Positions 1 through 18,475 of a stretch of DNA of 20,000 nt are shown piece after piece. Numbering within the stretch: the stretch's first letter is position 1; every line of letters starts with the position of its first letter. Made by a program: the position numbers and the translations under genes. This DNA is from a virus, in IMG/VR virus record IMGVR_UViG_3300027896_000289, positions 1 through 20,000 of that record; one strand, 5' to 3'. A model generated the notes under the pieces. That model had not been told where the DNA came from, searched no databases, and saw only the letters and a program-made list of their open reading frames with translations.

Positions 1-7
1 TTAATAT

Positions 8-67
8 GAAGTAATGCCGCCAACATTATTGAGGCGCGGGTTACTTCGTACAACACCGGCGTTATGC
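8..67. repeat. Hairpin at left edge, possible left-truncated attC
   Basis: GAAGTAA (8-14) and TTACTTC (41-47) are perfect inverted repeats, extended inward by a GC-rich imperfect stem (CCGCC region with GGCGCG region). The segment is followed by GTTATGC at 61-67, which fits the attC right-core consensus. The left core would lie upstream of the window, so it cannot be checked. The right part overlaps the left arm of the better supported site at 48-130, so both may not be functional. Confidence 0.35.
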
Positions 68-100
68 AATGCGGATCACATTAAGGAGTTGGAATTATAG
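14..100 (+). CDS. Tiny ORF ending at the attC right arm (28 aa, doubtful)
   Basis: An ATG at 14 opens a 28-codon frame ending in TAG at 98-100, directly before the right stem of the attC-like site. The MT-A70 gene and the 1285-1620 gene end in the same way at their sites, with a Leu codon and TAG abutting the right arm. An in-frame TAA at 2-4 limits the frame on the left. No Shine-Dalgarno site is visible and the frame lies inside inverted repeats, so it may be a decayed cassette gene or chance. No function is proposed. Confidence 0.2.
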   Translation: MPPTLLRRGLLRTTPALCNADHIKELEL

Positions 101-130
101 CCGCACTGCACAACACCGGAAACGTTAGGC
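48..130 (+). repeat. attC: attC-like site 1
   Basis: The left box GTACAAC (48-54) faces the right box GTTAGGC (124-130). The inner arms 56-74 and 101-119 pair over 19 positions with three non-Watson-Crick positions. All three become G.T wobbles if the bottom strand folds, which is the strand integron integrases recombine. The loop is 75-100. The right unpaired spacer is AAAC (120-123) and the left is a single A. Length is 83 nt, within the known attC range. Confidence 0.72.
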
Positions 131-172
131 GCAATTGTCAACGCTTGAGAGTTATAGTTTTTGGGGGCTAAG

Positions 173-817
173 ATGTTGTATCGCACGATAGTTGCAGATC
201 CGCCTTGGCCGTACACCTGTGCCATTGCGAACCGTAAGCGCAGTTGTGGCAGTGGTGCGCTTGAACCCGGGGCGCGCCTCCCATATCCAACTATGTCTAT
301 CAGCGAAATTTGTGCTCTGGACGTGGCAAAGATGGCGGCGGACGATTGCCATTTGTGGCTCTGGACTACTAACAAGTTTCTTCGCGACGGGTTTGACGTA
401 ATGGCCGCTTGGGGCTTCACGTATCTCGCGCCGATTCATTGGATCAAGCCGAGTGGCGTTGGCAATTGGTTTGTCAATCTCACGCAGACTTGCCTTTTCG
501 GGTATCGGCGCTTTTGCAAGTTCGAGGGGTCGCGCTATTTGCCAAACGTCATCGATGCGCGGGCGAGCGTCCATTCCGCCAAACCCGAAGAGACGTATCG
601 CTATATCGAAAGTGTGTCCGCCGCCCCTCGTCTCGAAATGTTTGCGCGCCCCTGGACTCCGCTGTTCCCAAGTCGGATCGGCTGGCATGTATGGGGTAAC
701 GAAGTTCCGTGTGATGCGAGCATCGCCCCCAAAAAAGAACTGGTGGAGGCGTTGACAACAGCGCCTAACACACAAAGGGACGCCATGCCCGCTGATGCTT
801 TTGAAGGGGATTTGTAG
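173..817 (+). CDS. MT-A70 family DNA N6-adenine methyltransferase (cassette gene)
   Basis: The 214-residue product carries the MT-A70 catalytic motif DPPWPY at about residues 9-14 (DPPW signature of SAM-dependent N6-adenine methylation). A central HLWLWTTN segment and a WGNEV stretch near the C-terminus are also typical of the family. The full fold is present, so it is likely active. No endonuclease gene is adjacent, which suggests an orphan methyltransferase that protects or marks DNA; this is inference. The ATG at 173 is chosen because GGGGG (163-167) is a suitable ribosome site; a TTG at 161 in the same frame would add four residues. The last 18 codons lie inside the attC-like repeat, and the TAG abuts its right arm. 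MT-A70 genes are common on phages and mobile elements. Confidence 0.9.
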   Translation: MLYRTIVADPPWPYTCAIANRKRSCGSGALEPGARLPYPTMSISEICALDVAKMAADDCHLWLWTTNKFLRDGFDVMAAWGFTYLAPIHWIKPSGVGNWFVNLTQTCLFGYRRFCKFEGSRYLPNVIDARASVHSAKPEETYRYIESVSAAPRLEMFARPWTPLFPSRIGWHVWGNEVPCDASIAPKKELVEALTTAPNTQRDAMPADAFEGDL

Positions 818-850
818 GCGGGCACAGCGCCCGTTTGTGGAACGTTGGGC
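763..850 (+). repeat. attC: attC-like site 2, overlapping the 3' end of the MT-A70 gene
   Basis: GCCTAAC (763-769) pairs with GTTGGGC (844-850). After a short unpaired spacer, CACAAA and GGG (771-779) pair with CCC and TTTGTG (830-839), leaving G833 unpaired. The inner stem TGCCCGC (786-792) pairs perfectly with GCGGGCA (818-824). The loop holds the end of the gene, and its stop TAG (815-817) directly precedes the right arm. Length is 88 nt. This is one of the two clearest sites, because boxes, spacer, bulge and inner stem are all present. Confidence 0.8.
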
Positions 851-868
851 GTTCGTTTCACACATTTT

Positions 869-897
869 GCCAGCTTTGAATTTATAGTTCGGCTGGC
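869..897 (+). promoter_or_regulatory. Leader hairpin just upstream of the 909 gene's ribosome site
   Basis: GCCAGC (869-874) and GCTGGC (892-897) form a 6-bp stem with a loop containing TTATAG. The right arm ends one base before the Shine-Dalgarno GAGGAGG (898-904). It may modulate translation of the following cassette gene or be a relic of an older cassette junction. No U-tract follows, so it is not an intrinsic terminator. Confidence 0.35.
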
Positions 898-908
898 GAG
901 GAGGAAAA

Positions 909-1241
909 ATGCGCGTAGCAGATGTTCGCAAACGGTATCCTGAGTTTTTCGTGACAGTGGAGGCGGCGGCTTGGGACGACATGCAGATGGATTTCAAACG
1001 AGGTATTATTTCCGATACAAAGGTCATGCGTCGTATCGCATATAACGCCGCCGCAGTCGCAACATTGGAGTTGCACAAGATCGCCAGCCGAAAGAAAATT
1101 ATTGTAGCTGGCAAAACTTCTCACAACAGCGCTATGGTCGAAATCGCTGATTCGGTGTGTAGCTTTTATACTACTAACCCACGTCTGAATCAGTCCGATG
1201 TTTCTTTTCTTGTCCAGTTAGAAACGCGACTTCGCCAGTAG
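909..1241 (+). CDS. Hypothetical cassette protein, 110 aa
   Basis: The gene starts with ATG behind a strong GAGGAGG (898-904), five bases of spacing, and ends in TAG (1239-1241) within the right arm of an attC-like site. The product is soluble-looking, with mixed charge and no signal peptide or membrane segment. An Ala-rich stretch around residues 47-54 suggests a helix. I recognise no domain. It sits alone between two attC-like sites, so it appears to be a one-gene cassette; most integron cassette genes have no known function, and none is assigned here. Confidence 0.72.
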   Translation: MRVADVRKRYPEFFVTVEAAAWDDMQMDFKRGIISDTKVMRRIAYNAAAVATLELHKIASRKKIIVAGKTSHNSAMVEIADSVCSFYTTNPRLNQSDVSFLVQLETRLRQ

Positions 1242-1256
1242 CGTGAACCGTTGGTG
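1172..1256 (+). repeat. attC: attC-like site 3 (weaker)
   Basis: TACTAAC (1172-1178) opposes GTTGGTG (1250-1256), with five of seven positions matching and two transitions. CACG (1180-1183) pairs with CGTG (1242-1245) and CTG (1185-1187) with CAG (1236-1238), the TAG stop of the 909 gene being bulged between them. The inner stem is short, so this site rests partly on its position between two cassette genes and on the shared GAAC-CGTTGG context with the site at 2712-2782. Confidence 0.5.
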
Positions 1257-1284
1257 GAAATAAACTTTTCCTTGGAGGTTATAA

Positions 1285-1620
1285 ATGGCCGCCGAAACAG
1301 ATTCACCCGTAAGGCACATGCTCTTTATGGATGTTGTTGTTAAAGCAACGTATGATCATTTTAAGAAATGGTGGGCGCAGTACGAAGCTGATATTTCTTC
1401 TACGCCAATGACCTCAACAAGGGGCGTTGCCTTCGATGCGTGGTTGGCGGCCATAAAACTGGTGGAAGAAAAGTTTACAGCAAACAACACACAAATGGAG
1501 AACATTTGCCCTAAATCCGCTGTGCTTCGCAGCAATCACACCTTGGTTTGCATCGAAGACGGCGATTCTTGTACTGGTATTGTTGGTGCTTGTCAAGATA
1601 ATGAGAGAGTTTATTTATAG
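1285..1620 (+). CDS. Hypothetical cassette protein, 111 aa
   Basis: ATG 1285 follows GGAGG (1274-1278) at good spacing; the TAG stop (1618-1620) directly precedes the right arm of the next attC-like site. The product has no membrane segment. An amphipathic N-terminal half (VVVKATYDHFKKWWAQYEAD) is followed by a Cys-containing C-terminal part (ICPKS, VCIEDGDSC, GACQ). The four cysteines in the last 40 residues could bind metal or be chance. The last 46 codons lie within the repeat, so the C-terminus may be shaped by the recombination site. No family is recognised. Confidence 0.7.
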   Translation: MAAETDSPVRHMLFMDVVVKATYDHFKKWWAQYEADISSTPMTSTRGVAFDAWLAAIKLVEEKFTANNTQMENICPKSAVLRSNHTLVCIEDGDSCTGIVGACQDNERVYL

Positions 1621-1655
1621 GGGCAAACAGCACCCGTTTGTGGAACGTTGTTTGC
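1480..1655 (+). repeat. attC: attC-like site 4, overlapping the 3' end of the 1285 gene
   Basis: GCAAACAAC (1480-1488) and GTTGTTTGC (1647-1655) are perfectly complementary over 9 bp. CACAAA (1490-1495) pairs with TTTGTG (1637-1642), GG (1497-1498) pairs with CC (1634-1635), and TTTGCCC (1505-1511) pairs with GGGCAAA (1621-1627). The GGAAC spacer before the right core (1642-1646) is the same as in site 2. The loop is long (about 109 nt), giving a 176-nt site, longer than most attCs. The right core GTTGTTT departs from the GTTRRRY consensus, but integrases read folded shape more than sequence. Confidence 0.7.
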
Positions 1656-1661
1656 AATACC

Positions 1662-1690
1662 GGGGCAGAGCGAAATTATAGGCGCGCCCC
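1662..1690. repeat. Small inverted repeat after site 4
   Basis: GGGGC (1662-1666) and GCCCC (1686-1690) flank a loop containing AAATTATAG. It immediately precedes the terminator hairpin of the minus-strand operon. A comparable GGGGC/GCCCC pair occurs at 2682-2710 at the other end of this cassette. Confidence 0.35.
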
Positions 1691-1719
1691 AAAACAAAAA
1701 GGCCCGCGTCGTGCGGGCC
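1691..1719 (-). terminator. Intrinsic terminator of the minus-strand operon
   Basis: GGCCCGC (1701-1707) and GCGGGCC (1713-1719) form a perfect 7-bp GC stem with a 5-nt loop. On the minus strand it is followed by TTTTTGTTTT (complement of 1691-1700). It lies 28 bases beyond the stop of the last minus-strand gene and matches a rho-independent terminator for that transcript. Confidence 0.88.
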
Positions 1720-1747
1720 AAGACAGAAGACAAGAAATGCGGAATAT

Positions 1748-2143
1748 CTACTCTGTAAATTTGCGGTATGCCTCTCGGCGAGTATCAGTCAGCGAGATAC
1801 CCAACTCCTCTGATTTTGTTTCGAGTGCGGTTTTCAGTTCGCCGGGAACCGTGATTTTGTCGAGCACGGTGTCGCCGACGGACGGTCGCCCGATCCGGCT
1901 GGAAACCTCACCGAACGCGAACCCGTCCTTATACCCGCGTCCCCGTTGTTTGCGCGATTCGTCGCGGCTGTTCGCGGCTGACAACCATTTCTCATGCTCT
2001 CCCGGTTCGCCGAATTTCTCACCGTGGTATGCTCGGCGCAGCCCGCGGATGTACCCGGCCCAATACTCTGCCATCATCGGTTCGGCGAGGCCGCGCATTG
2101 TCTCGGCGCGGCGCATTTCTGATTTGAATTTCTGCTCTGTCAT
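1748..2143 (-). CDS. Putative ribbon-helix-helix-like protein, 131 aa
   Basis: The minus-strand ATG at 2143 is preceded by AGGAGG at good spacing. The N-terminal two thirds are charged and Gly/Arg-rich (GYIRGLRRAYHG at about 30-41, RGRGYKDGFAFG at about 68-79). The last 45 residues, from GRPSVGDTVLDKITVPGELKT onward, have a short beta strand followed by two helices (LKTALETKSEELG; TDTRREAYRKF), as in CopG/Arc-type DNA-binding folds. That would make it a DNA-binding regulator or a cassette-maintenance factor; the assignment is by pattern only. It is second in a two-gene operon read against the array, 19 bases after the upstream gene. Confidence 0.75.
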   Translation of the reverse strand: MTEQKFKSEMRRAETMRGLAEPMMAEYWAGYIRGLRRAYHGEKFGEPGEHEKWLSAANSRDESRKQRGRGYKDGFAFGEVSSRIGRPSVGDTVLDKITVPGELKTALETKSEELGISLTDTRREAYRKFTE

Positions 2144-2162
2144 TGCGAACCTCCTGTTTATG

Positions 2163-2522
2163 TTAGTCGCTCATTCTGTCGTAGCAATCCGGGCAACTGG
2201 TGCCCATCGACGCGCTCATCACCGAACCACGCGGAACGCTGTGCCCGCAGGAGCATTTCACCAGGGCGGGAGCCGGTTTCGGGGCAGCAACGGCGCGAAT
2301 CTGCTCCATGCCGTGATCGTAATAGTAGTTGGGGCTCTGTTTGCCGGTTTTCGCTGCCGCTCCACGGCCGTCGTTCAGCAGTTTTTCCAGTTCGGCACGG
2401 TCGATTTTTTCAAACGCCGCCGCCTGGTCGAGGGCTGCATTGGCCGTAGCGTCGTCAACCGGTTTCCAGCTCATCCCCATCGATCCGACGTATCCGCTGG
2501 TCATCTGGTACTGTCCGCTCAT
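2163..2522 (-). CDS. Hypothetical protein with C-terminal Cys motif, 119 aa
   Basis: The minus-strand ATG at 2522 follows AGGAGGAGAG, a strong ribosome site. The C-terminus holds KCSCGHSVPRG...SCPDCY, a CxC-CxxC pattern that could bind one zinc ion as a small ribbon. The middle (residues 30-60) is Ala-rich and helical, and an internal QSPNYYYDHGMEQIRA stretch is distinctive. It is first in the minus-strand operon, behind a good promoter. I do not recognise its function; similar zinc-ribbon small proteins occur on phages and plasmids. Confidence 0.75.
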   Translation of the reverse strand: MSGQYQMTSGYVGSMGMSWKPVDDATANAALDQAAAFEKIDRAELEKLLNDGRGAAAKTGKQSPNYYYDHGMEQIRAVAAPKPAPALVKCSCGHSVPRGSVMSASMGTSCPDCYDRMSD

Positions 2523-2564
2523 TCTCTCCTCCTCGGTTTAGGTTTGCTCTCTGCCTACACCTAT

Positions 2565-2593
2565 AATATACACTATTTTGATAAGAAAGTCAA
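2565..2593 (-). promoter_or_regulatory. Sigma70-type promoter for the minus-strand operon
   Basis: Read on the minus strand, TTGACT (complement of 2588-2593) and TATATT (complement of 2565-2570) are separated by exactly 17 bases. The surroundings are AT-rich. It lies about 43 bases before the ATG at 2522. A near-consensus promoter facing this way explains expression of genes that oppose the array. Confidence 0.85.
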
Positions 2594-2716
2594 TACTTTT
2601 TTAATAAATAATGAAGATATTTTTATCCCCATAAACTACAACGAGTTACAAAGCGAAGAGCGGCCCGTCCTGGGCCGAAGAGGGGCGCGCAGGACATTAA
2701 TGAGTGCCCCGGTACA
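2594..2716. other. Intergenic stretch before the last attC-like site
   Basis: The left part is AT-rich upstream DNA of the minus-strand promoter. The right part holds two inverted repeats: CGGCCC/GGGCCG (2670-2686 region, 5-nt loop) and GGGGC (2682-2686) with GCCCC (2706-2710). Neither is followed by a T-run. No gene is seen here. Confidence 0.4.
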
Positions 2717-2782
2717 ACAAACAACAGGCGCAGGGTTGCCATTTGCAAAGCCAAACAGCACCCGTGCGCCGAACCGTTGGAG
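2712..2782 (+). repeat. attC: attC-like site 5, last in the array
   Basis: GGCGCA plus GGG (2727-2735) pair with CCC plus TGCGCC (2761-2770), leaving G2764 unpaired. This is the same bulge position after CCC as in sites 2 and 4. The right core is GTTGGAG (2776-2782). The left core is ambiguous: GTACAAC (2712-2718, the same as site 1) or AAACAAC (2719-2725). The segment CAAACAGCACCCG is shared with site 4. TGC/GCA and TTTG/CAAA extend the stem inward to a very short loop. Confidence 0.62.
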
Positions 2783-2787
2783 GAAAT

Positions 2788-2937
2788 ATGAAACAAAAAT
2801 TACTCGCGGTTCTCTGGTTCCTGTTCGCCGTTGCCGCGCTCATGGCGGCGTATCAATACGTCAGCGAAATCGCCTACGAGCGGGGAATCCATGACGCTAA
2901 TCACCTGAAGTTTTACCCGAAGGAGGCAGGAAAATGA
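2788..2937 (+). CDS. Small single-pass membrane protein, 49 aa
   Basis: ATG 2788 is chosen because GGAGGA (2779-2784) lies directly before it; an upstream in-frame ATG at 2704 would run through the attC repeat and lacks a good ribosome site. Residues 4-22 (KLLAVLWFLFAVAALMAAY) form one hydrophobic segment with a positive N-terminus, then a short polar tail. It opens a run of four overlapping small genes, sharing ATGA with the next. Function is unknown; a membrane anchor or lysis-associated role is conceivable but unsupported. Confidence 0.68.
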   Translation: MKQKLLAVLWFLFAVAALMAAYQYVSEIAYERGIHDANHLKFYPKEAGK

Positions 2938-3155
2938 AATTGCTAAATGACATTAATGTCGTAGCGTCAAAAGAATTTATCGAACTGATGGCGCTAAAAA
3001 CAGAGGCGGACGGGATGACGGCAGAAAATCATATCCGTATAGCAAATATCGAAGCACCCGCTTACAACGATATAGAATTTTTCAGGATAGCAGAAAAGAT
3101 GCGTGCGCTGAAACCGAAGGAGGTCAAGGATGAGCGAATACCAGAAGCCATATAG
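2934..3155 (+). CDS. Hypothetical small protein, 73 aa
   Basis: It starts at an ATGA overlap with the preceding stop, with AAGGAGG about 10 bases upstream, so translation is probably coupled. The product is helical and charged, with no cysteine and no membrane segment. No domain is recognised. Its last 26 bases overlap the next gene, typical of compact phage early or accessory operons. Confidence 0.68.
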   Translation: MKLLNDINVVASKEFIELMALKTEADGMTAENHIRIANIEAPAYNDIEFFRIAEKMRALKPKEVKDERIPEAI

Positions 3156-3345
3156 CGAACACGCGCGGCGGGAACATGAGCGGATATTTGCCACGAAAAA
3201 ATATAAAGTCAAAAGAGGGATATTTCAGGGACATATTTTCCTCGGTGAATATGTCATAATCAACGGGGAAGAAAGAATTTGGGATTGCGATAGCGTAGGA
3301 CGTTCTTACCCCGCCGAAGACTGCGAACCAGTGAGGGAGTGGTGA
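3130..3345 (+). CDS. Hypothetical small protein, 71 aa
   Basis: AAGGAGG (3117-3123) precedes ATG 3130 at good spacing, inside the end of the previous gene. The N-terminal 30 residues are strongly charged (HARREHERIFATKKYKVKRG). The remainder looks like beta structure (IFLGEYVIINGEERIWDCD), possibly a small SH3-like or KOW-like barrel, but this is speculative. No family is recognised. Confidence 0.66.
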   Translation: MSEYQKPYSEHARREHERIFATKKYKVKRGIFQGHIFLGEYVIINGEERIWDCDSVGRSYPAEDCEPVREW

Positions 3346-3349
3346 AAAT

Positions 3350-3511
3350 ATGAAATGTAAAGATTGTAAATTTTTTACAAAGGACGTTGAGTTTCCGCAA
3401 CTTGGACAATGCAGTAAAATATTCAATGAATACATACATGTTGTATCTGCCGATGCTTGGTATATAGAACCCGAATTTGGTTGTATTTACGGAGAACCAC
3501 GAAGGAAGTAA
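3350..3511 (+). CDS. Small four-cysteine protein, 53 aa
   Basis: This short gene begins with ATG five bases after the previous stop. The product begins MKCKDCKFF and continues with GQC and FGC, giving a CxxC...C...C arrangement suited to one zinc ion. This pattern is frequent among tiny phage-encoded proteins whose role is unknown. A purine-rich GAGGGAG lies upstream, at slightly long spacing. A similar two-part Cys pattern appears in two small genes at 8620 and 8936, so the phage carries several unrelated small metal-binding candidates. Confidence 0.65.
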   Translation: MKCKDCKFFTKDVEFPQLGQCSKIFNEYIHVVSADAWYIEPEFGCIYGEPRRK

Positions 3512-3552
3512 GCCGTCGGAACCGATGATGCCGGTTGCTATAAGTAAAGCCG

Positions 3553-3610
3553 GTTTTATCGCTAAAAATCGTGTTTTATTAATAAAACAACGCAGTTTTA
3601 TCAATAAAAA
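3553..3610. repeat. Three spaced copies of a palindromic AT motif
   Basis: Copies begin at 3553, 3573 and 3595. The middle one, GTTTTATTAATAAAAC (3573-3588), is a perfect 16-base palindrome. The third, GTTTTATCAATAAAAA (3595-3610), differs at two positions, and the first (GTTTTATCGCTAAAAA) at more. Spacing of 20 and 22 bases is about two helical turns, so bound dimers would sit on the same face of the DNA. Confidence 0.6.
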
Positions 3611-3777
3611 TAAATTATTTTTGGTATATTTTTGAAAATCCGCGAAGTTTTTCTCCGTTTTACAGGTTTGGTAAGTCCTTGAAAAACCCAAAGATATAGA
3701 AGTAATGTAAGATTTTTTGCGAAAAATAAGGATGATATGGGTTATTGTTTATAAATAAACCATTGTTATAAAAAAAA

Positions 3778-3795
3778 ATATATAGGTCTATATAT
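3778..3795. repeat. Perfect ATATATAG-GT-CTATATAT palindrome
   Basis: Two 8-base arms around a GT centre, 45 bases before the DUF5681 gene start. AT-rich extensions on both sides continue the symmetry imperfectly. It could be an operator, an easily melted segment or low-complexity chance. Confidence 0.4.
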
Positions 3796-3840
3796 ATTTT
3801 AGTTTGGACTTTACACTGAAAAATGAGGTATTATTAGATC

Positions 3841-4281
3841 ATGAAAGTTGAAAAGCAAGTTAAGAAGAAGATACAAGGATTCGGAACCGGTGCCGGATTC
3901 AAACCTGGTAAGTCCGGTAATCCTCTTGGGCGTCCGGTAACCGAACGGTGTATACCAGAAATCTTACGAAGAATCGGTAACGATCCTGCTCCTCCAAGTG
4001 TAAGAAGGTTCTTGAGTAAACAGTTCCCAACCAGAGATCTTACAAATTTGGATAACCGGGAAGCAACATTACTCCGAGCTTATTACGATGCTGACAGAGG
4101 CAAGGATTCTGCAAGAGACTTTATTGCCAACAGAACTGAAGGTAAAGTAAGAGACCGGATTAATCTTACTACCGGCGATGAAAAAGTAAACAAACCTGTG
4201 ATTGATTTCTCAGCACTGACTCCTGATAAACTATACTCATTAAGGGAGACCTTGCGTGCAATTGTTAGAAACCGAGCTTGA
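3841..4281 (+). CDS. DUF5681-type phage protein in the small-terminase position, 146 aa
   Basis: Residues 13-33 (FGTGAGFKPGKSGNPLGRP) match the DUF5681 signature, a short basic Gly/Pro motif found in phage proteins next to large terminase. The following 80 residues are helical and charged. The gene lies directly before the large terminase and overlaps it by 26 bases, the usual place of TerS, so a role in DNA recognition for packaging is likely but inferred. The start is the ATG at 3841; the only ribosome-site candidate is a weak GAGGT about 13 bases upstream. Codon use is AT-leaning, like the first half of terL. Confidence 0.72.
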   Translation: MKVEKQVKKKIQGFGTGAGFKPGKSGNPLGRPVTERCIPEILRRIGNDPAPPSVRRFLSKQFPTRDLTNLDNREATLLRAYYDADRGKDSARDFIANRTEGKVRDRINLTTGDEKVNKPVIDFSALTPDKLYSLRETLRAIVRNRA

Positions 4282-5677
4282 GGTCTTACTGGATGTGAAT
4301 GAGCAGCTCGCTCGTTCTTTTCTTATAGACTTCATTGAGTATAACAATTCCTTTTATACTACAAGATGGTTTCACGAACAAATATGTGAACATCTTGATA
4401 GTTTACTTCGGAATGGTCATCATAAATTGATGGTATTCTTACCTCCGCAGCATGGTAAGAGTACTATCATATCTGAAAATTTTCCTGCATTTGCTCTCGG
4501 ATGTAACCCTAAACTTCATATAGTTTCTTGTTCATACTCGTCAGACCTCGCTCAGAAATCCAATCGTAAAGTACAGCGTCTCATTGATACCCCAACATAT
4601 CGTAAACTATTTCCTGAAACACAACTCAATGATAAATCCGTAGCGAATGATAGTAAGGGAAACTGGTTGCGTAACACCGAAGTATTCGAAATCGTTAAGC
4701 ATGCTGGTTCGTTCAAGGCAGTCGGAGTCGAAGGTGCTCTCACAGGAAACCCAATTGATATTGGTATAATTGACGATCCTGTAAAAGATTCTGTTGAAGC
4801 ACAATCTACGACAACAAGAAACAGAAATTGGGAGTGGTATAACGAAGTCTTTGTACCTCGTTGTCACAATACCAGTAAAAAAATCTTGGTGATGACCCGC
4901 TGGCATGAGGATGATCTGGCAGGGAGAATTCTTGCGAAAGAAAAGGACTGGAAAGTTTTTTCTCTCCCAGCGATCAAAGAAACCGAACCGAATAAAGAAG
5001 ACCCGCGAAAAATTGGCGAGGCACTCTGGCCGGATAAGCATTCGGCTGAGAGTATTATAGCTATTCGTGGAAAGTCTGAAAGAGCATTTATTTCTTTATA
5101 TCAACAACGTCCTGCCCCAGTGGAAGGCGGCACGTTCAAAAAGGCGTGGTTTAAGTTTTACAAAAAAGGAGACGCGCCGCCGACGTTCGACACGGTGATC
5201 CAGTCATGGGATTGCGCCTTTAAGGACACCGTGACGAGTGACTTCGTTGTCGGTCAAGTCTGGGGCAAGGTCGGCGTGACGGCATATCTGCTTGACATGG
5301 TGCGCGGACAGTGGAGTTTCACGGAAACTGTAAAGCAGATGCGATTGCTGTCTGAAAAATATTCGGAATGCGACGCGAAGTATGTTGAGGACAAGGCAAA
5401 CGGGACGGCGGTCATTGACACACTGAAAAGTGAAATCTCGGGGATTATTCCGGTCACGCCGACCGAATCAAAAGAATCACGCGCCGCAGCAATTTCTTAT
5501 GTCATTGAAGCGGGGAATGTATATTTTCCATCGGATGAGAACTGGACGGCCGACTATCTTGACGAGATGGCCGTGTTCAATAACGGGGCGCACGACGATA
5601 TGGTGGACGCCACTACTCAGGCACTCAAAAAACTCTACAAGGGCGAAGCGATGCCCGGGTTGTTTGTAATAGGATAA
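4256..5677 (+). CDS. terL: Phage terminase large subunit (ATPase and nuclease), 473 aa
   Basis: TerL packages DNA into the prohead and cuts genome ends. The N-terminal ATPase shows Walker A PPQHGKST (63-70) and Walker B IDIGIIDD (167-174, D173/D174). MTRWHEDD follows in the motif III region. The C-terminal RNase H-like nuclease has acidic residues in QSWDCAFKD (D319), VEDKANGTAV (E378/D379) and HDDMVDA (D447/D448/D451). Length is normal and complete. It begins with GTG at 4256 behind GGGAG, inside the DUF5681 gene, so the two are coupled. Third-position base use changes from AT-rich to GC-rich near 5130, at the junction of the two domains, suggesting recombination of the nuclease half. Confidence 0.95.
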   Translation: MQLLETELEVLLDVNEQLARSFLIDFIEYNNSFYTTRWFHEQICEHLDSLLRNGHHKLMVFLPPQHGKSTIISENFPAFALGCNPKLHIVSCSYSSDLAQKSNRKVQRLIDTPTYRKLFPETQLNDKSVANDSKGNWLRNTEVFEIVKHAGSFKAVGVEGALTGNPIDIGIIDDPVKDSVEAQSTTTRNRNWEWYNEVFVPRCHNTSKKILVMTRWHEDDLAGRILAKEKDWKVFSLPAIKETEPNKEDPRKIGEALWPDKHSAESIIAIRGKSERAFISLYQQRPAPVEGGTFKKAWFKFYKKGDAPPTFDTVIQSWDCAFKDTVTSDFVVGQVWGKVGVTAYLLDMVRGQWSFTETVKQMRLLSEKYSECDAKYVEDKANGTAVIDTLKSEISGIIPVTPTESKESRAAAISYVIEAGNVYFPSDENWTADYLDEMAVFNNGAHDDMVDATTQALKKLYKGEAMPGLFVIG

Positions 5678-5680
5678 ACT

Positions 5681-8623
5681 ATGCCAACAAAAAAGAGAAC
5701 AAAGAAGTTCGAGAAAATGTCTGCCGCGGAGATATTGCAAACAGCAACTCGCGAGGAAAAACAATCGTGGATGGATGCTCTTGGCAGTCATGCGGCGCCT
5801 ATTGCAGGCACGCTCGAAGGCGAGGGAGGCATGCAGACGATCGTTCCACAAATGTATCAAATGTTCCAAGGGACAGGGTGGTTTCCACAACTCAGCTGGT
5901 TTCAGCTTGCAAATATGTATTCAAGCTGGGAATATACTGCTACGGAAAAAATCGCCCGGACATTAGCTGGACTCCCCGCAAAACTATTTCGATATGAAAA
6001 CTCTCAAGGGAAAACAATCAAGCCCTTCTACGTGAAATCGCTAATACGTAATGACGTAATGAAGCATCTCTCCTCGAATGTTATCGCTCGGAAACTATAC
6101 AAGGATCATGGAATCAAACGAGTTGAAATCGATGATCATCCTTTCCTTGACCTCATTAGTAAACCGAATGGTGATATGGTTCGGTATAACTTTTGGAGGA
6201 TGCTGGTAATCCATCTGGAGCTTGACGGCGCGGTTGGAATTTACAAAGCAAAACCGGATGGTTTCGGAAATCCAACAGAGCTTCATATTCTTCCGACGAC
6301 TTGGACAGGTCGGTTCAGTCCGGTTCCTTCCAGAGACGGAGTAAATCTGATCCGGGCTTATCGACTGCTTGATCAGGATATCAATACGGAATTTACCAGA
6401 GAAGAAATAATCTGGATTCATTATACGAGTCTACGAAATCCATTCGAAGGCATGAGCGCAGTCAAAGCGCAGCTCTATTCGTTTAACATGGATCAGTATT
6501 TAATGCAGCAGATAAACGCCTTCTATAAGAATGGTGCAATGTTCTCAAATGTATTCTCGACAGAGCAGCAACTCGTACAAAAACAATATGATGCTATTTC
6601 ATCCCAGCTTCAAAATTACACTGGCGCGAAGAATGCCGGGCAGAAGTTCATTCTGCATAGCGGTCTGAAGATGGAAAAACCGCTTATGGCAACAGCACGG
6701 GATTCGATGGTTGATGAGATCGAACGAATGACTCGGGACAAGATGCTTTCAGCGCACGACCTCTCCGCGGGGAAAATCGGTCTGACCGAACACCAGAATC
6801 GTAGCAATCTTGAAACAGTAGATATGGGATTCTTCAATGAAGCGATCAAACCTCGTGCAATGCTCATAACAGAGTATTTTGATCAATTTCTTGTTCACCA
6901 ATACGACGAGAATTTGGATTTTGAATTTGATTATCCGCACTATCAGGATCGTGATATGGATATCAAGGAAAGGCAATCAAATATCACTAATGGTGTTACT
7001 ACCCGTAATGAAGAGCGTAATAAAATGGGACTTGAGTCGATTGACGGCGGTGATGTAATTCTTGTCTCTCCGATGAATGTACCGCTGACAAGCGTGGCAA
7101 ATCCGTCAGAACCTGCACCCGCACTCGGACTTCCGTCCGAGCCGCCCCCGCCGGTTCCGAAAGAGCCGGCAGTCAAGACATGGACGCCTGACTCCAAGAC
7201 CGCCGCGTGGAAAGCCTTTGATCGTGAAGCGACGGCCTACAAACCACTGTTCAAACGCGCCGCGGTTAAGTTCTTCCAAGATACAAGCAAGGATATAATC
7301 GACCGCCTCGAAAAGCACGGCGTGAAAATCAAGAGCAACATTGGCGCGATGAATCTTAACGGACGGCAGAAATGGCTTGCCGACCACAAAGCACGGTTAG
7401 ACGAGTTCATCCCGTCCATAGCCGACATGAAGAAGCAGTTGGAAAAGGAAATGAAACCGGCTTACCTTGCCGTCCTGAAAGAACGCGGTGGGAAGAAGAT
7501 GAAGGAACTTGATTCCCTTTCCTCCAGCGGAAAAAAGGACATTGAGGCCGAGGTCGAACTTGAGTTTGACTACAATGATCCCGAAGTTAAGAAATGGCTC
7601 GGCGTGAAACTGGAAAAGCTGGGCAAAGAAGTTACCACTACGACCGTTGACAATATAAAAGAAATCCTCCGTGATGATTTTGAGGCCAGTGAGCCACTGA
7701 TGAAGATGGGCGAGCACCTTCGGGATTATTTCACCGGCGCTGAAACATATCGTGCGAACCTGATAGCACGGACGGAAAGCACCGCGTCCATGAATGAAGC
7801 CGACCTTGAAAGCGTCCGGCAGATGGACATGGAAGATGTAGTCGCAAAAGTCTGGCTCACAGAGCAGGATGATTCGACGCGCGAAACGCACCGCGAAGCA
7901 GGTGGGCGCTATTCAGACGGTCGCGATAGTGAAGACGGGCAGCCGATGCGGATAGACGACGAGTTCGAAGTCGGTGATGACCGGATGACCGCGCCCGGTG
8001 GCGGGACACTTGCAGAAGAAAATTGCAACTGTCGATGCGGACTTGTTTACGAAGTCATTGCCGAACCGGAAGAAAAAGCGTTTGAAGAAAAATCATTTCA
8101 AACAGGTCTAACTATTGACCCTGCTCTTGAGTCCCTTCCGCAAAATGTAAAGAATGAAATCGAAGGGGCACTATCCGATTCATACTTCCCGAACGCAAAG
8201 TATTCCAGACTCAAAGCGTTAGGAGTAATGACGAAAGATACCGGCGCGCTTGCTTCATACTGCGAAGACGATGAAACAATCCGGCTCAATATGGATTGGT
8301 TCTCTTTACCGGGAAAACTCAAAGAGTATTTGGTGAAAGCTTCAAGCGAAGGATTTCACCCCAGCGGATGCTCGACAATTAAATCAGTTATAGACCATGA
8401 GATTGCACATTCGTTCACTTCCGGGGTGACTGAACTTGAAGATGTCGTTTCCAATATTGGTAAAAGAGCAGGAGCAAAAGCAATCGCAAATAATGTAAGT
8501 AAATATGCAACATATAATCCGAGGGAATGTATGGCTGAAGCATGGACAATGAGTAAAAATAGTGATCAAACAAATGAACTGCAAGAAGAAGTGGTGAACC
8601 TTATTCAGCAGAGGTTAAAATGA
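5681..8623 (+). CDS. Portal - MuF head morphogenesis - zincin-like fusion protein, 980 aa
   Basis: Residues about 60-465 resemble HK97-type portal (HPFLDLISKPN, IIWIHYTSLRNPFEGMS, the KMEKPLMATARDSM region), which forms the dodecameric DNA gate. A Pro-rich linker (about 470-495) leads to a MuF/SPP1 gp7-like region (about 600-795) with ARTESTASMNEADLESVRQ (R697-E699) and the closing EENCNCRCG. The last 165 residues contain HEIAH (906-910), an HExxH zinc-protease signature, and ECMAEAW (949-955) that could supply the third ligand. HK97-type portals are usually about 400-500 residues, so this is a triple fusion. The start ATG 5681 follows a modest AGGA. Composition is GC-richer in the linker/MuF part (7080-8090) than in either flank. 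The terminal domain may act on host or capsid proteins; substrate unknown. Confidence 0.9.
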   Translation: MPTKKRTKKFEKMSAAEILQTATREEKQSWMDALGSHAAPIAGTLEGEGGMQTIVPQMYQMFQGTGWFPQLSWFQLANMYSSWEYTATEKIARTLAGLPAKLFRYENSQGKTIKPFYVKSLIRNDVMKHLSSNVIARKLYKDHGIKRVEIDDHPFLDLISKPNGDMVRYNFWRMLVIHLELDGAVGIYKAKPDGFGNPTELHILPTTWTGRFSPVPSRDGVNLIRAYRLLDQDINTEFTREEIIWIHYTSLRNPFEGMSAVKAQLYSFNMDQYLMQQINAFYKNGAMFSNVFSTEQQLVQKQYDAISSQLQNYTGAKNAGQKFILHSGLKMEKPLMATARDSMVDEIERMTRDKMLSAHDLSAGKIGLTEHQNRSNLETVDMGFFNEAIKPRAMLITEYFDQFLVHQYDENLDFEFDYPHYQDRDMDIKERQSNITNGVTTRNEERNKMGLESIDGGDVILVSPMNVPLTSVANPSEPAPALGLPSEPPPPVPKEPAVKTWTPDSKTAAWKAFDREATAYKPLFKRAAVKFFQDTSKDIIDRLEKHGVKIKSNIGAMNLNGRQKWLADHKARLDEFIPSIADMKKQLEKEMKPAYLAVLKERGGKKMKELDSLSSSGKKDIEAEVELEFDYNDPEVKKWLGVKLEKLGKEVTTTTVDNIKEILRDDFEASEPLMKMGEHLRDYFTGAETYRANLIARTESTASMNEADLESVRQMDMEDVVAKVWLTEQDDSTRETHREAGGRYSDGRDSEDGQPMRIDDEFEVGDDRMTAPGGGTLAEENCNCRCGLVYEVIAEPEEKAFEEKSFQTGLTIDPALESLPQNVKNEIEGALSDSYFPNAKYSRLKALGVMTKDTGALASYCEDDETIRLNMDWFSLPGKLKEYLVKASSEGFHPSGCSTIKSVIDHEIAHSFTSGVTELEDVVSNIGKRAGAKAIANNVSKYATYNPRECMAEAWTMSKNSDQTNELQEEVVNLIQQRLK

Positions 8624-8811
8624 GAACATTCGTCGGAGAGCCTGTTTGTTTTGAATGTAAGCGTTTCGTATGCGCCTTTGATAATTGGCACTGTGACGCG
8701 TTTCCAGCAGGTATTCCTGATGAGATACGGCATGGTAAACTCGATCATACAACTCCGGTCGAGGGGGACAGTGGCATTCTATTTGAGAGAGGGGAACCGA
8801 CATACTTATGA
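8620..8811 (+). CDS. Small cysteine-containing phage protein, 63 aa
   Basis: It starts at ATG 8620, overlapping the portal stop as ATGA, with GAGG upstream in the portal end. VCFECKRFVCAFDNWHCDAFPAGIPDEI has a CxxC plus two further cysteines, and the GIPDEI...H..PVEGDSGILFE tail recurs in small phage and bacterial proteins of unknown role. It may bind zinc. Translational coupling suggests production with the portal fusion. Confidence 0.7.
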   Translation: MRTFVGEPVCFECKRFVCAFDNWHCDAFPAGIPDEIRHGKLDHTTPVEGDSGILFERGEPTYL

Positions 8812-8939
8812 AAGACATCGGAATAGCAATACTGTCGGCATTAATTGCAATAGTTCTGATTGCCGGTGCTTTTTATGCCTATAAACTTGAAGTAAAATCA
8901 ATCATCTATCATACGGTTAAACCGGAGTGCTTGAGATGA
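8808..8939 (+). CDS. Small membrane protein, 43 aa
   Basis: ATG 8808 overlaps the previous stop (ATGA), and its own stop TGA (8937-8939) overlaps the next ATG the same way. Residues 5-25 (GIAILSALIAIVLIAGAFYAY) form one transmembrane segment, followed by a basic tail. A GAGAGGGGAA sequence upstream may serve as ribosome site. Size and shape would suit a tiny envelope protein; no function is claimed. Confidence 0.6.
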   Translation: MKDIGIAILSALIAIVLIAGAFYAYKLEVKSIIYHTVKPECLR

Positions 8940-9097
8940 AAACAAAATATGAAAATAAGGCAATGTCAACCAATGCAGATTGTCCTCAAGTTTGTATTGG
9001 GTGCAAAGATGTTGACTTTGATGGTCGATTTCATCACTGCAAAGCATTACGGTTCTGGAAAGACTGTCAGAAGGCAAAAGCAAAATGTTCAACATGA
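8936..9097 (+). CDS. Small cysteine-rich protein, 53 aa
   Basis: It opens at the ATGA overlap with the 8808 gene. The product holds six cysteines: C16, CIGC (20-23), HHC, KDC and KC near the end, compatible with one zinc-binding knuckle. The pattern CPQVCIGCKDVDFDGRFHHCKALRFW resembles other phage mini-proteins of unknown role. The end overlaps the following gene by 13 bases. Confidence 0.58.
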   Translation: MKTKYENKAMSTNADCPQVCIGCKDVDFDGRFHHCKALRFWKDCQKAKAKCST

Positions 9098-9642
9098 ACA
9101 TGAATGTCATAATTACAAACCATGGCGATAAAATGAAATACAATCGTCTCATGGACAATTTTCTTAAATTCCGAAAAGTGAAAGTGAACTTTTCATATAT
9201 TGCTTTCGGTAAGACCGATGCAGAGATGATTGTGAAAGGATATGAAGCACTTAAGCATTGCGATAGTGACAGTTGGATGAAGTTGCATTCTGATAGTACA
9301 ATACTAAATGAAGAAATTATAGCCAATATATTCGGTAATTTATTTTGCAACTCATATCACTATGCTGGTCACAAGTGGCGTGGTAGAATAAATGAATTTG
9401 CAACTGATTTCTTTTTTGCTGATTCGCGGTTTATGCACTTCTTTATACCTGAAATAAAAAAGCGAGTTTTTCCTGGAGTAGAAACTATTGAACAATGTGC
9501 ATATCGAGTTAATAGGATGTGTGGAGGATACTGGGTCATGGATAAACCATTTAATGAATATAAAATACTCGATCCAGTTCTCGGTCAGACATCACTGAAT
9601 CGTCTTGAAAAAGCTATCAACGAATTTTCGAAATCAACCTAA
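9085..9642 (+). CDS. Unknown protein between portal and protease, 185 aa
   Basis: The frame runs from ATG 9085 (AGAAGG about 11 bases upstream); internal ATGs at 9091, 9097, 9103 and 9133 are alternative starts, the last giving MKYNRLMDNF. The product is aromatic-rich with clusters such as YHYAGHKWRGR and DFFFADSRFMHFF, and a Cys pair CAYRVNRMCGG. There is no signal peptide. The gene is AT-rich compared with both neighbours, which suggests separate origin. I recognise no domain and assign no function. It ends 14 bases before the protease gene. Confidence 0.65.
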   Translation: MFNMNMNVIITNHGDKMKYNRLMDNFLKFRKVKVNFSYIAFGKTDAEMIVKGYEALKHCDSDSWMKLHSDSTILNEEIIANIFGNLFCNSYHYAGHKWRGRINEFATDFFFADSRFMHFFIPEIKKRVFPGVETIEQCAYRVNRMCGGYWVMDKPFNEYKILDPVLGQTSLNRLEKAINEFSKST

Positions 9643-9656
9643 CGAAAGGATTTTTT

Positions 9657-11687
9657 ATGAATCTTCAGCATAAGCAATTCACTGGCCGTTTGAAGAGCTT
9701 CGATGATACGGAGCTCGTGATTGAGCATTTCATCTCAACAGAGTCTCAAGATAGTACCGGCGACGTAATGGTCGCAGATGGAATGAAAATGCGCGGAAAG
9801 CCTGTAGTGCTTTTTCAGCACGGCATGGATCCAAAATTCGGAAATGAGCCAATTGCGAAGGTGCTGGATATCCGCGTTGGTGAATATGATGGCAAGAGAG
9901 GTCTCATTGCCAAGACGCAGTATTTCAACACAGCCAAGATTGACCCGGACGATCATACGGGCGAGCGACTATATGCAAAGGCAAAAGACGGCACCATGCC
10001 AAATTGGAGCATCGGATTCAATTCCATTAAAGAGCATCCAATCAAGGGCGGACGTAGTGTCGATGAATGGGAGCTCCACGAGTACAGCCAAGTCGCAGTC
10101 GGAATGAACTCCGAAGCACATACCCTTTCTACCAGCGCCCCGGAAATGAAGTTCATCATTGTCAAAAATATTCCGGACGGCTTCGCTGACGAAAAGGCCT
10201 TTCTGGACGCGACGGAGGAATTTGAATACGACGACGCGCCGGAAATGGACTGCCGGGATGGAGAATGTAAAACTGTCAGCGCGAAGCCCTACGCAAACGA
10301 ACATGCCTGCCGGATAAATGACCCGGGCAAGTTTTCCAAGTTCCGCCGCCAGAATGCGGCACGCGATCACGACGGCAAAAAATACGACGTGATATATGGA
10401 CAACTGAAAGGCAGTGACAAATGGGACGAGCAAGCGTATCGTTACCCGAAGGACACATGGAGCGCCGAAGCCGCCGCCGCGCATTGCAAGTCACATGATG
10501 GTTCTTTCGAGGCGGCAAAGTCTCTTCCTTCCAGCGAACGGAAAGAAATGTCCGCGCATAAGCGTGCGCATAAAGCAATTCACACACTGCACCGCGAACT
10601 TATTAATGACCTGAAGGACGCCGCCGAAAGTGATGACCTGATAAAAGACGGCGCGGAATCACTCGCGGATGAGGCCCTTGATGAATTTGAAGATTGTGTT
10701 TCTCCGCACGTGGAGAAATACATCAAGGCCGTCCGTGCAATGAGGGATGACGAAGCGTTCGACGACGAGGAGGCCGTCCGCGACCTCGAGGTCGAGGACG
10801 ACGACGACGAAGACGCCGCCGAAAGCAAGGCGCAGAAAGGCACTTCAGACTACAGCACCGTGCGGAACGCTTCTGAGGACGCCGCCGACGCGACGGACGC
10901 TGCTGAAGACGCTGATGACCACAAGGAGGCCGCCGCACTGCACCGCGTCGCGGCGAAGGGACACCGCACGCTCGCACGTGACGCTGAAGACGAGGACGTA
11001 AAGCGCGCCCACCGTGATCTCGCCGACGCACATAATGACATGGCCGACGCGCATGACGACTGCAAAGACGGACTTGACACAGGCGACATTCGCGACTGGC
11101 TTGACGACCTCGACGAGGAATACGAGGACAACCTTAAGGAGTTTGCGTGCAAAGGCTTCCGCACGCACCACAAGGCACTCAAGGATGACCTTGACGAAAT
11201 GATAAAAGGAATACGTGGTCACAAGGGCAAAAAGGCGACCGTGCCGCGCCATGCCGCCGATGAGTGCCTGAAGGCGCACCGCGAAGCCGCTCTGCCTCAC
11301 GCTGTCGAATACGTCAAGGCGTGGCATGCCCGCGCGAAAGCGTCCGAGGATGATGACGCCATGAGTGAGATGGAGCGCAAACCGATTCTGAAAAGAATTT
11401 ATCTGTCAATGACAAAAACCGATAAAGAATCCTTGCTGAAGGCTCTTTATCACCCGCCGAAAACCGTCCCGTCGGTTCCGGCGCATAAATCCCTCACGGC
11501 GCAGGAAAAGGTCTTTCGGTTCGCCACGCCAGAACCGGAGCCGACCTTAAAAATCATGGCGGATGAAAAACCCGAGCCGACCGTGTCTGCAGATATGGTG
11601 AAGGTCATTATGGACTCCGTATCGGAGAAAATAAAGACCGCTATCACCAGCGAACTGCGGCGTGCCGCCGGACGGGTGACACAATAA
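9657..11687 (+). CDS. Prohead protease with long acidic scaffold-like extension, 676 aa
   Basis: Residues 1-165 match HK97-type (S78) prohead protease, with H55 in LFQHGMDP, S118 in NWSIGFN and E142 in ELHEYS as the likely catalytic set. This enzyme matures the capsid shell by cutting scaffold and capsid precursor. Residues about 215-285 (EHACRINDPGKF...YRYPKDTWSAEAAAAHC) form a conserved extra domain seen in some phage proteases. From about 290 to 560 the chain is Asp/Glu/Ala/His-rich and helical, followed by a charged tail. Most such proteases are about 200 residues, so the extension could act as an internal scaffold, as in protease-scaffold fusions. Start ATG 9657 follows AAAGGA. The GC-rich, repetitive codon use of the extension differs from the first 500 bases. 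Confidence 0.87.
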   Translation: MNLQHKQFTGRLKSFDDTELVIEHFISTESQDSTGDVMVADGMKMRGKPVVLFQHGMDPKFGNEPIAKVLDIRVGEYDGKRGLIAKTQYFNTAKIDPDDHTGERLYAKAKDGTMPNWSIGFNSIKEHPIKGGRSVDEWELHEYSQVAVGMNSEAHTLSTSAPEMKFIIVKNIPDGFADEKAFLDATEEFEYDDAPEMDCRDGECKTVSAKPYANEHACRINDPGKFSKFRRQNAARDHDGKKYDVIYGQLKGSDKWDEQAYRYPKDTWSAEAAAAHCKSHDGSFEAAKSLPSSERKEMSAHKRAHKAIHTLHRELINDLKDAAESDDLIKDGAESLADEALDEFEDCVSPHVEKYIKAVRAMRDDEAFDDEEAVRDLEVEDDDDEDAAESKAQKGTSDYSTVRNASEDAADATDAAEDADDHKEAAALHRVAAKGHRTLARDAEDEDVKRAHRDLADAHNDMADAHDDCKDGLDTGDIRDWLDDLDEEYEDNLKEFACKGFRTHHKALKDDLDEMIKGIRGHKGKKATVPRHAADECLKAHREAALPHAVEYVKAWHARAKASEDDDAMSEMERKPILKRIYLSMTKTDKESLLKALYHPPKTVPSVPAHKSLTAQEKVFRFATPEPEPTLKIMADEKPEPTVSADMVKVIMDSVSEKIKTAITSELRRAAGRVTQ

Positions 11688-11706
11688 ACAACGGAAGGAA
11701 GTTTTT

Positions 11707-13077
11707 ATGTCGAATAAAGAAATGACGCTTTCCGAGCTCAAGGCCGAGATCGAGAAAGTCGCACAGGAAAAGGGTGTCGCCGCCGCGAAGGATGCGATAG
11801 ACCTTTTCAAGAAGGAAGGTTTGCAGGCGGAAATGAAGAAAATCTACCCGAACTTCTCCGAAGAGGGTGGGTTCGACGGCAATCACCTGAGAAGCAAAAG
11901 CGGCTCAGTGGTCGACCCGTCCGTGTTCCGCAAGAACTACGTCGGTCAGACCGACGCGGAGTTCGCGGCCTCGCTGACGAACATCGGCGGACCGTATAAA
12001 AAGCTCTCTCCCGCGATGGAGATGTGGGGTCAGCTTTTGAAATGCACCGGAAACCGCAATGCCCTTATCCGGTTTCCGTATCAGGATCTCAAAGGCTTGA
12101 TCGAGCAGGAGTATAAGGCATATGGAATCAAAGCGACGACCGACCTCATGGCCGAAAACGAAGCGCTCTCCGGCTCGTATTTGGTGCCGATAGAGTTCCC
12201 GTCCATGGTCATCGAAGCGGCGATCAAGCAGTCGCCTATCCTGCAAAACATCTGGCGCATGCCGATGAATGCCTCGATCGTGTCCCTGCCGAAGCTCACT
12301 CAGGCCGATGGTTCGTACTTCGGTGGAGTTACCTTCCAAGAAGTCGGCGGCGTGACATATAACGCCGGTCAGGTCGCGAACGTAGGTGAAGGCGTGCACA
12401 TCGATCCGAAACAGGCCAGCATCGAGCGTATCATGCTGCTTGCGAAGAAGGTCGTCGCGGGTGTCGTGCTGACGGACGAAATTATCCAGGACTCGGTCAT
12501 CAACATCATCAACTATATGACCGGCCTGCTCGTTCGCGCATGGCAGTATCGCCTTGAGTACTATGTCATCCAGGGTAACGGTTCGACTCAGCCGCTCGGT
12601 ATTACGAAGGATGCTGATATCATTGCATCAGCACTCCCGCGCCTTGCCGCTGGCGAAGTCAACTACCGCGACTTTATCCGCGTGGATTCCGACCTCGACG
12701 AAATCTTTTCGGGTTCGGAGTTCTGGCTCATGCGGAAAAAGACTCTCGGGAACCTGCGCGAAAAGGTTGACACCGTCAAGCAGCCGATCGTGAAGGAAAC
12801 CTGGGGTGAGAGAATGGGCATTCCGACTCTCACGCCGACGATCCTCGGGCACCCGTATCACGTTTCCAAGAACGTGCCGGCACTGGGGAGCACCGGAGAT
12901 ATTATCATCGCAAACCTCGGTATGTATATCCTCGGCATCAGAGCCGATATGCGGATCGACATAAGCGATGCGCCGCGTTTCGAATACGATGAAACGAACG
13001 TCCGTTTCGTCGCTCGTCTCGATGGCAAACCGGGAACCGCCTTTGCATTCAAAATGCTCAAGGCGTCGCAGTCGTAA
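11707..13077 (+). CDS. HK97-fold major capsid protein, 456 aa
   Basis: It is the building block of the icosahedral head. The first ~80 residues are helical and charged (MTLSELKAEIEKVAQEKG...LFKKEGLQAEMKKIYP), like a short delta/scaffold segment removed by the protease. The rest shows the HK97-family pattern: an N-arm, LVPIEFPSMVIEAAIKQSPILQNIWRMPM, an E-loop region, and the closing FVARLDGKPGTAFAFKML. Length is typical. GGAAGGA lies just before ATG 11707. It follows the protease by 19 bases and is closed by a strong terminator, usual for a highly expressed late gene. A Lys/Asn crosslink as in HK97 cannot be judged by eye. Confidence 0.92.
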   Translation: MSNKEMTLSELKAEIEKVAQEKGVAAAKDAIDLFKKEGLQAEMKKIYPNFSEEGGFDGNHLRSKSGSVVDPSVFRKNYVGQTDAEFAASLTNIGGPYKKLSPAMEMWGQLLKCTGNRNALIRFPYQDLKGLIEQEYKAYGIKATTDLMAENEALSGSYLVPIEFPSMVIEAAIKQSPILQNIWRMPMNASIVSLPKLTQADGSYFGGVTFQEVGGVTYNAGQVANVGEGVHIDPKQASIERIMLLAKKVVAGVVLTDEIIQDSVINIINYMTGLLVRAWQYRLEYYVIQGNGSTQPLGITKDADIIASALPRLAAGEVNYRDFIRVDSDLDEIFSGSEFWLMRKKTLGNLREKVDTVKQPIVKETWGERMGIPTLTPTILGHPYHVSKNVPALGSTGDIIIANLGMYILGIRADMRIDISDAPRFEYDETNVRFVARLDGKPGTAFAFKMLKASQS

Positions 13078-13098
13078 TCTGTCGAAAGACGATACGAA

Positions 13099-13130
13099 GG
13101 GGAGGGGAAAATACCTCTCCCCTATTTTTC
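13099..13130 (+). terminator. Intrinsic terminator after the capsid gene
   Basis: GGGGAGGGG (13099-13107) pairs with CCTCTCCCC (13114-13122) with one mismatch and a 6-nt loop, followed by TATTTTTC. It lies 22 bases after the capsid stop. It probably limits read-through from capsid into the glycosyltransferase and tail genes, setting capsid in excess. Confidence 0.85.
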
Positions 13131-13140
13131 AGAGGAAACT

Positions 13141-15091: not shown

Positions 15092-15440
15092 TTGGGCGAA
15101 TTTGACAATACTCAAAGGGCCGATGTATCTTAATCTCAAAGATGCGGATTCGACTCGTGATGCTGCTCTCACTACGCTCGGGCAGATGATAACGGCTGAA
15201 ATGATTTCATATATTGACGATTCATCTATGGATAATTCCGCGCCGGCTTTCGATCTGCAAAGAGCATGTCTCGAACAGTGCTGTTATGAATGGAAGCAAC
15301 GAGCGACGCCGGGATTACAAAGCGTACAGATGCAAGACGGTTCAATTAACAAATATCAAATTGACGAGTGGTTGAAAAACGTCGAGAAAATATTAATTCG
15401 TCGACGGCGGTATGTAGTATATGAAACAGTGAGTTCATAA
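15078..15440 (+). CDS. Putative head-tail connector (gp6-like adaptor), 120 aa
   Basis: ATG 15078 follows AAAGGAG and gives a protein starting MATPNWANLTILKGP; a longer in-frame extension lies inside the glycosyltransferase gene and is rejected. The helical pattern (TRDAALTTLGQMITAEMISYIDDS, then ACLEQCCYEWKQR) fits the four-helix adaptor proteins that ring the portal. Identification rests mainly on size, helix pattern and its position after capsid. It overlaps the GT9 gene by 14 bases. Confidence 0.6.
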   Translation: MATPNWANLTILKGPMYLNLKDADSTRDAALTTLGQMITAEMISYIDDSSMDNSAPAFDLQRACLEQCCYEWKQRATPGLQSVQMQDGSINKYQIDEWLKNVEKILIRRRRYVVYETVSS

Positions 15441-15441
15441 T

Positions 15442-15756: not shown

Positions 15757-15763
15757 GGATATT

Positions 15764-16871: not shown

Positions 16872-16880
16872 GAGGACTTT

Positions 16881-18472: not shown

Positions 18473-18475
18473 ACT

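Follow-up and report, generated by a model that had tools for sequence, protein, structure and literature searches.

Here, we analysed a 20,000-nucleotide stretch of viral DNA (positions 1 to 20,000 of the IMG/VR record IMGVR_UViG_3300027896_000289; hereafter the window), whose source record is a 20-kb virus contig, and found that its first 2.8 kb are probably the closing (3′) part of an array of mobile gene cassettes that a tailed phage carries, integron-like in plan and without an integrase of its own. Cassette boundaries were located at the G of GTT at positions 124, 844, 1250, 1647 and 2776. A cassette would run from one G/TT to the next (the slash marks the crossover point) and would hold one or two small accessory genes, often for a DNA methyltransferase, with an attC-like imperfect palindrome as its last element. 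The array carries genes for an MT-A70 adenine methyltransferase, two unknown proteins of about 110 amino acids and two unknown proteins on the reverse strand. With at least two attC-like sites separating genes and no integrase, the region has the layout of a CALIN (a cluster of attC sites without an integron integrase), albeit one made up of non-canonical sites; no match to the integron integrase family TIGR02249 was obtained in the window record, and attI was not searched for. A preliminary description, made from the sequence alone, had recognised five repeats on the attC plan; it had overlooked the DNA adenine methyltransferase filling cassette 1 and a 21-nt complementarity joining the two ends of one cassette (124-144 with 749-769, and 1647-1667 with 2705-2725).

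To score the sites, we used a covariance model (R1) trained on 26 aligned attC-like sites of other phages, with the window and L001, a contig of a related phage, excluded. R1 matched site 1 with 30.0 bits, site 2 with 44.5 bits, site 5 with 44.6 bits and the L001 site with 36.4 bits. Across the 394 kb searched, which took in integrons of Vibrio and Fibrobacterota, phage arrays from the literature and phage DNA of the ordinary kind, it gave two further matches only (E 2.5 and 7.4), neither of them convincing. Covariation was strong in the R1 alignment, where 108 cells were altered on both sides vs 39.6 in shuffles, and the signal was lost when the partner was slid. A separate pattern finder scored sites 1, 2 and 5 at 26 or above within 2.8 kb, against a background of four such places per 490 kb of strand. 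Altogether, 57 sites of the family were counted in array contigs, and a search of Rfam returned nothing. The analysis as a whole confirmed a genuine array within the genome of a phage, in which sites 1, 2, 4 and 5 hold up.

The folds of sites 1, 2 and 4 agreed with this. Site 1 forms a 19-bp stem on the bottom strand (z -2.9), its non-paired positions becoming G.T pairs as had been described, and site 2 folds better on the bottom strand (z -4.8) than on the top strand (z -2.8). Site 4, which has a long loop of about 120 nt, was missed by R1; its bottom-strand fold reached z -3.3 and a 97% identical copy is present at L001 12-183. The unpaired G after CCC in the right arm of sites 2, 4 and 5 was also correctly described. 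The hairpin proposed for site 3 (about 1160-1256) folded no better than shuffled sequence (z +0.27). Even so, a cassette boundary at 1250 has support, because the ends of the next cassette pair perfectly over 10 bp (1261-1270 with 1468-1477). RYYYAAC and GTTRRRY boxes flank the imperfect palindromes, and some R′ boxes depart from RRRY (GTTGTTT, GTTGGAG). Separately, terminal loops with a GGAGTTRGAATTATAG-like sequence are common to three otherwise different sites (window 86-101, L046 7224-7239, and L047 about 2035-2055 on the minus strand).

The evidence for cassette movement is comparative, and all boundaries were read from sequence. Firstly, the phage of L001 has a terminase 74% identical to that of the window phage. 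L001 opens on the last part of cassette 3 together with site 4 (positions 1-188, 97% over 188 nt), continues with a different cassette in place of cassette 4 (about 177-1283) between the same crossover boxes, and rejoins the phage genes of the window at the same GTTGGAGGAAATATG; the junction at site 5, GTTGGAGGAAATATGAAACAAAA, is identical in L001 1284-1306. Secondly, window 121-848 corresponds to 5961-6671 of the phage contig L046 at 89%, which is exactly the MT-A70 cassette, with different neighbours on each side; compared with ten proteins of the window phage, the L046 phage had only a 30%-identical tape-measure stretch in common. Thirdly, L046 and L112 stem from phages of different samples that show 99.0-99.97% identity wherever they align, but in L112 the left flank CGGTGAAC is joined directly to GTTGTATGC, with five cassettes omitted and the join at the G/TT of R′. 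The break in the assembly at the end of G187, the contig that holds this join, may stem from such array variation. In all three comparisons, the boundaries of the exchanged or shared cassettes fall at the G/TT of R′, the attC crossover point. Taken together, these comparisons show, on our reading of the boundaries, that cassettes were exchanged, gained or lost as units at this point, between related and unrelated phages. Repeats fixed in related genomes with no exchange, which the preliminary description had named as an observation against it, were looked for and the opposite was found. A final viral scan for more variants of the window phage returned L001 only.

We then compared the sites with ordinary attCs by means of a canonical model (R2), built from seven Vibrio and six Fibrobacterota sites, to which the structure of the published plan was assigned manually. 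R2 recovered the known integrons. It also detected three sites in the array published for phage TJE1, on which it had not been trained, and found 0 sites in the window, L001, L046, L101, L054, L105, L109 and L057. This shows that, as judged by model and alignment, window-type sites are a family of their own and not the ordinary attCs they had been taken for. Of 50 sites, 37 have a conserved single-base bulge on the L′ arm vs 2 on L″, while 18 of 20 sites of chromosomal integrons are canonical; the reading direction of two control integrons was chosen by the bulge itself, and the Vibrio control is free of that. The spacers are asymmetric as well (1-2/5 nt). If the arrays were read the other way round, the bulge would come to lie on its usual side, but the crossovers were mapped to R′ rather than R″, and this reading was rejected for that reason.

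Moreover, the cassettes carry an outer stem. The front consists of GTTRRRY, 4 nt and an arm of 8-12 nt, and the tail of a complementary arm of 8-12 nt, 4 nt and RYYYAAC. This stem pairs only within the same cassette, with at least 6 bp in 38 of 51 cassettes (window cassette 3 having been entered with ends other than 1261-1270/1468-1477) vs 1.7% of mismatched front-tail pairs. Pairing of at least 7 bp was found in 20 of 38 cassettes (permutation p <= 1e-4) and in 0 of 8 of the Vibrio control. In cassette 2, which ends in the degenerate site 3, no outer stem was seen. Folding calculations gave a more stable hairpin in the free circle than in the array in 16 of 16 cases, with a mean gain of 12.7 kcal/mol. 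About half of the cassette fronts have TTATA within 60 nt, vs 11% in the background, and this element may be a promoter. In several cassettes (L001 172-253; L054 7756-7837 and L109 3274-3352, both on the reverse strand), the crossover is followed by a conserved leader, about 80 nt long, that contains a GC-rich hairpin.

A search of the array phages for a shared recombinase of the tyrosine, serine or Y1 families returned none (several contigs are fragments), and PF00589 is absent from most array contigs, many of which are fragments. Therefore, the recombinase is most likely supplied in trans, with a host integron integrase as the likeliest candidate. One array contig, L057, is a phage-like contig within a metagenome-assembled genome (MAG) of the Chitinivibrionales. 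In the phylum of this MAG, integron integrases above the family cut-off occur in 14 of 168 genomes and R1 sites in 11 of 168, mostly single or paired and often near contig ends, with two on one 251-kb contig; from these counts, too, we infer a host integrase acting in trans. The host would lie in or near the Chitinivibrionales group; a capsid search in that phylum gave distant matches only. A host integrase would act on the folded bottom strand. The outer stem, complete in the free circular cassette alone, would strengthen the hairpin of the circle by about the 12.7 kcal/mol calculated, and capture would be favoured over loss because of this. The phage would gain accessory genes, some of them against restriction, in a set that changes over time. 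Going further, we tentatively consider a phage-adapted system with its own site family, a cassette-specific third stem biasing it to capture, a dedicated recombinase or specialised host integrase, and a gene pool shared by phages of 20 to over 200 kb.

Several observations weigh against an integron-like array served by a host integrase. Most array contigs have no integrase gene, and phage-type sites immediately next to an intact integrase did not turn up in any genome. All contigs are metagenomic, host and lifestyle are provisional, and the L112 junction lies only 125 nt from the end of contig G187. According to published work, the two extrahelical bases of natural attCs share a side, and an engineered site that had such bases on both arms was not excised by IntI1 (PMC3053210); for this reason, a standard IntI may not use the sites of the phage family.

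Another, unrecognised recombinase, encoded by phages or by an element, could move the cassettes, with the divergent sites adapted to that enzyme and no integron integrase involved. This possibility is somewhat doubtful. It would fit the failure of the canonical attC model on these sites, the bulge on the opposite arm and the third stem, and also the arrays directly beside intI in the same phylum, which consist of ordinary attCs and contain none of R1's sites. However, the R boxes, the G/TT crossover and the folded bottom-strand plan are features of IntI substrates, and a recombinase common to the array phages is exactly what the search did not return. Ordinary Fibrobacterota chromosomal integrons were rejected as the source of the cassettes on the basis of the readable intI-adjacent arrays.

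It is unlikely that no site-specific enzyme takes part and that slippage or annealing between short AACGTT repeats during phage replication, with the paired ends looping the cassette out, accounts for the rearrangements. In its favour, the L046/L112 junction falls inside a 7-nt repeat (AACGTTG), the long-range pairing of cassette ends would draw such repeats together, and the L046 phage encodes a YqaJ-type recombination protein. Slippage explains how cassettes are lost, but neither how the MT-A70 cassette came to be inserted in unrelated phages, among neighbours that are themselves unrelated, nor why breakpoints fall at G/TT in every comparison.

The distribution of the site family bears on whether the array belongs to the phage at all. 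About a dozen contigs of up to 213 kb carry it, namely L046/L112, L047 (164 kb), L048, L054, L057, L101/L118 (213 kb, about 20 sites), L102, L104, L105, L109 and L111, the last with one cassette front only. L054 (contig G009) comes from a relative of the window phage, with a capsid identity of 69%. The array lies upstream of the packaging genes in L001 as in the window, upstream of the portal gene in G009, and downstream of phage replication genes in the near-identical contigs G011 and G187. In another relative, G008 (L051-L053), capsid and portal reach 76% identity and the 44-kb contig is free of array sites, which indicates that the array can be present or absent among close phages. The recognisable cassette genes encode methyltransferases (MT-A70, Dam and C5). 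The preliminary description had left two readings side by side, capture of integron cassettes by a phage or a prophage adjoining an integron. The second, in which the integron would be chromosomal and the array bacterial, is very improbable: the window holds the last part of the array only and phage-type sites also occur in some bacterial genomes, but the array keeps its place in L001 and G009, lies inside phage contigs of 35-213 kb and follows replication genes in G011/G187, all of which favours capture by a phage. Chance inverted repeats or terminators, for which the failure of site 3 and the looseness of attC-like folds as patterns might be cited, are scarcely credible and are refuted for sites 1, 2, 4 and 5 by the trained-model matches, the background rate, the covariation and the exchange at the predicted point.

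The features are listed below. The array abuts an operon leading to terminase, as had been reported, and from 2788 onward a tailed-phage module follows with genes for a DUF5681 protein, large terminase, portal-MuF, protease and capsid, in that order. For the first phage gene (ATG 2788), the R′ box of site 5 doubles as ribosome-binding site.

Features of the array and the adjoining phage module (window coordinates unless a contig is named)
Feature	Position	Strand	Remarks
attC-like site 1	48..130	+	R″ GTACAAC 48-54, L″/L′ stem, R′ GTTAGGC 124-130
Cassette 1, G/TT to G/TT	124..843	+	MT-A70 adenine methyltransferase gene 161-817, PF05063 E 3.6e-20
Cassette 1 outer stem	front arm TTGTCAACGC 135-144, partner GCGTTGACAA 749-758	+	10 bp; 4-nt symmetric internal loop adjoining R box
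attC-like site 2	763..850	+	R″ GCCTAAC 763-769, R′ GTTGGGC 844-850
Cassette 2	844..1249	+	open reading frame 909-1241 (110 aa), weak PADLOC PDC-M08A match, E 7e-6
Cassette 3	1250..1646	+	open reading frame 1285-1620 (111 aa, function not recognised)
attC-like site 4, long loop	1482..1653	+	R″ AAACAAC 1482-1488, R′ GTTGTTT 1647-1653
Cassette 4	1647..2775	+	genes 1748-2143 and 2163-2522, both on the minus strand
Cassette 4 outer stem	1658-1667/2705-2714		
attC-like site 5	2719..2782	+	R″ AAACAAC 2719-2725, R′ GTTGGAG 2776-2782
First phage gene past array, 49 aa	2788..2937	+	operon start toward packaging; 87% nt conserved in L001 behind different cassette
DUF5681 protein, probable small terminase	3841-4281	+	PF18932, slightly under cut-off
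Large terminase	4256-5677	+	PF17289/PF03237
Portal-MuF fusion	5681-8623	+	PF04860, PF04233
Prohead protease	9657-11687	+	PF04586, slightly under cut-off
Probable major capsid protein	11707-13077	+	from gene order and relatives
R1 phage-type sites in genomes of the Chitinivibrionales MAG's phylum	L151 (G045:C32) 9160-9265, 12121-12207; also L152, L154, L157, L131		

Within window 2776-2800, the start of the first phage gene, GTTGGAGGAAAT, resembles a cassette front, and no matching tail was seen by eye. Further downstream, 13141-15091 holds two overlapping genes of the structural operon, 53-56% conserved in G008 and glycosyltransferase-like by eye only. Among the candidates examined, L030-L033 from the first pattern scan were chance matches: L030 and L032 have no array and hold the motif within structural genes of a phage, while the motif of L032 is also that of L031 and L033. 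Among the matches in genome contigs, L057 alone was real, and L055, L056 and L058-L060 have no array around the match; L100, L103 and L106-L108 are not arrays either.

A few attC sites were already known from phages; whether cassettes circulate among phages had been an open question, and natural exchange, gain and loss can now be read from sequence. Arrays of up to about 20 sites occur in phages from small to jumbo, and their several DNA methyltransferases could counter restriction. The outer stem offers a concrete idea of how a cassette might prefer integration to excision. Phage cassette arrays may also be under-counted, because a canonical-type model does not see this site family.

With regard to known systems, integron attCs (the Vibrio VCR and those of Fibrobacterota chromosomal integrons) share with the phage family the R″-L″-loop-L′-R′ plan, the AAC/GTT boxes and the G/TT crossover, and in both the boxes are complementary within one cassette. 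They differ in that the integron controls carry the bulge on L″ and 3/3 spacers, in place of the L′ bulge, the 1-2/5 spacers and the extra outer stem of the phage family. In the Fibrobacterota chromosomal integron L096 (G180:C444, 208-1686), cassette ends also pair beyond the R box, over 13-14 nt; its sites are of the ordinary attC type with 3/3 spacers, and the geometry of the extension is unlike the fixed 4/4 offset of the phage family. In the open-access literature, we found no paper on natural cassette exchange between phages, on the present site type or on the outer stem. Phage cassette arrays themselves, which the preliminary description had thought little described, are already known: phage CALINs, methyltransferase cassettes and the recombination of phage attCs by IntI1 were published by Qi et al. 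2023 (PMC9892861). In the sections of that article drawn on here, natural exchange between phages is not described, and both the site family and the natural exchange appear to be new. In the TJE1 array reported there, which is without an outer stem, canonical R2 detects three sites, whereas it detects none of the present family. Its CALINs nonetheless resemble the present arrays, which reach about 20 sites, in holding attC cassettes inside phage genomes with no integrase in cis and with methyltransferase cassettes among them.

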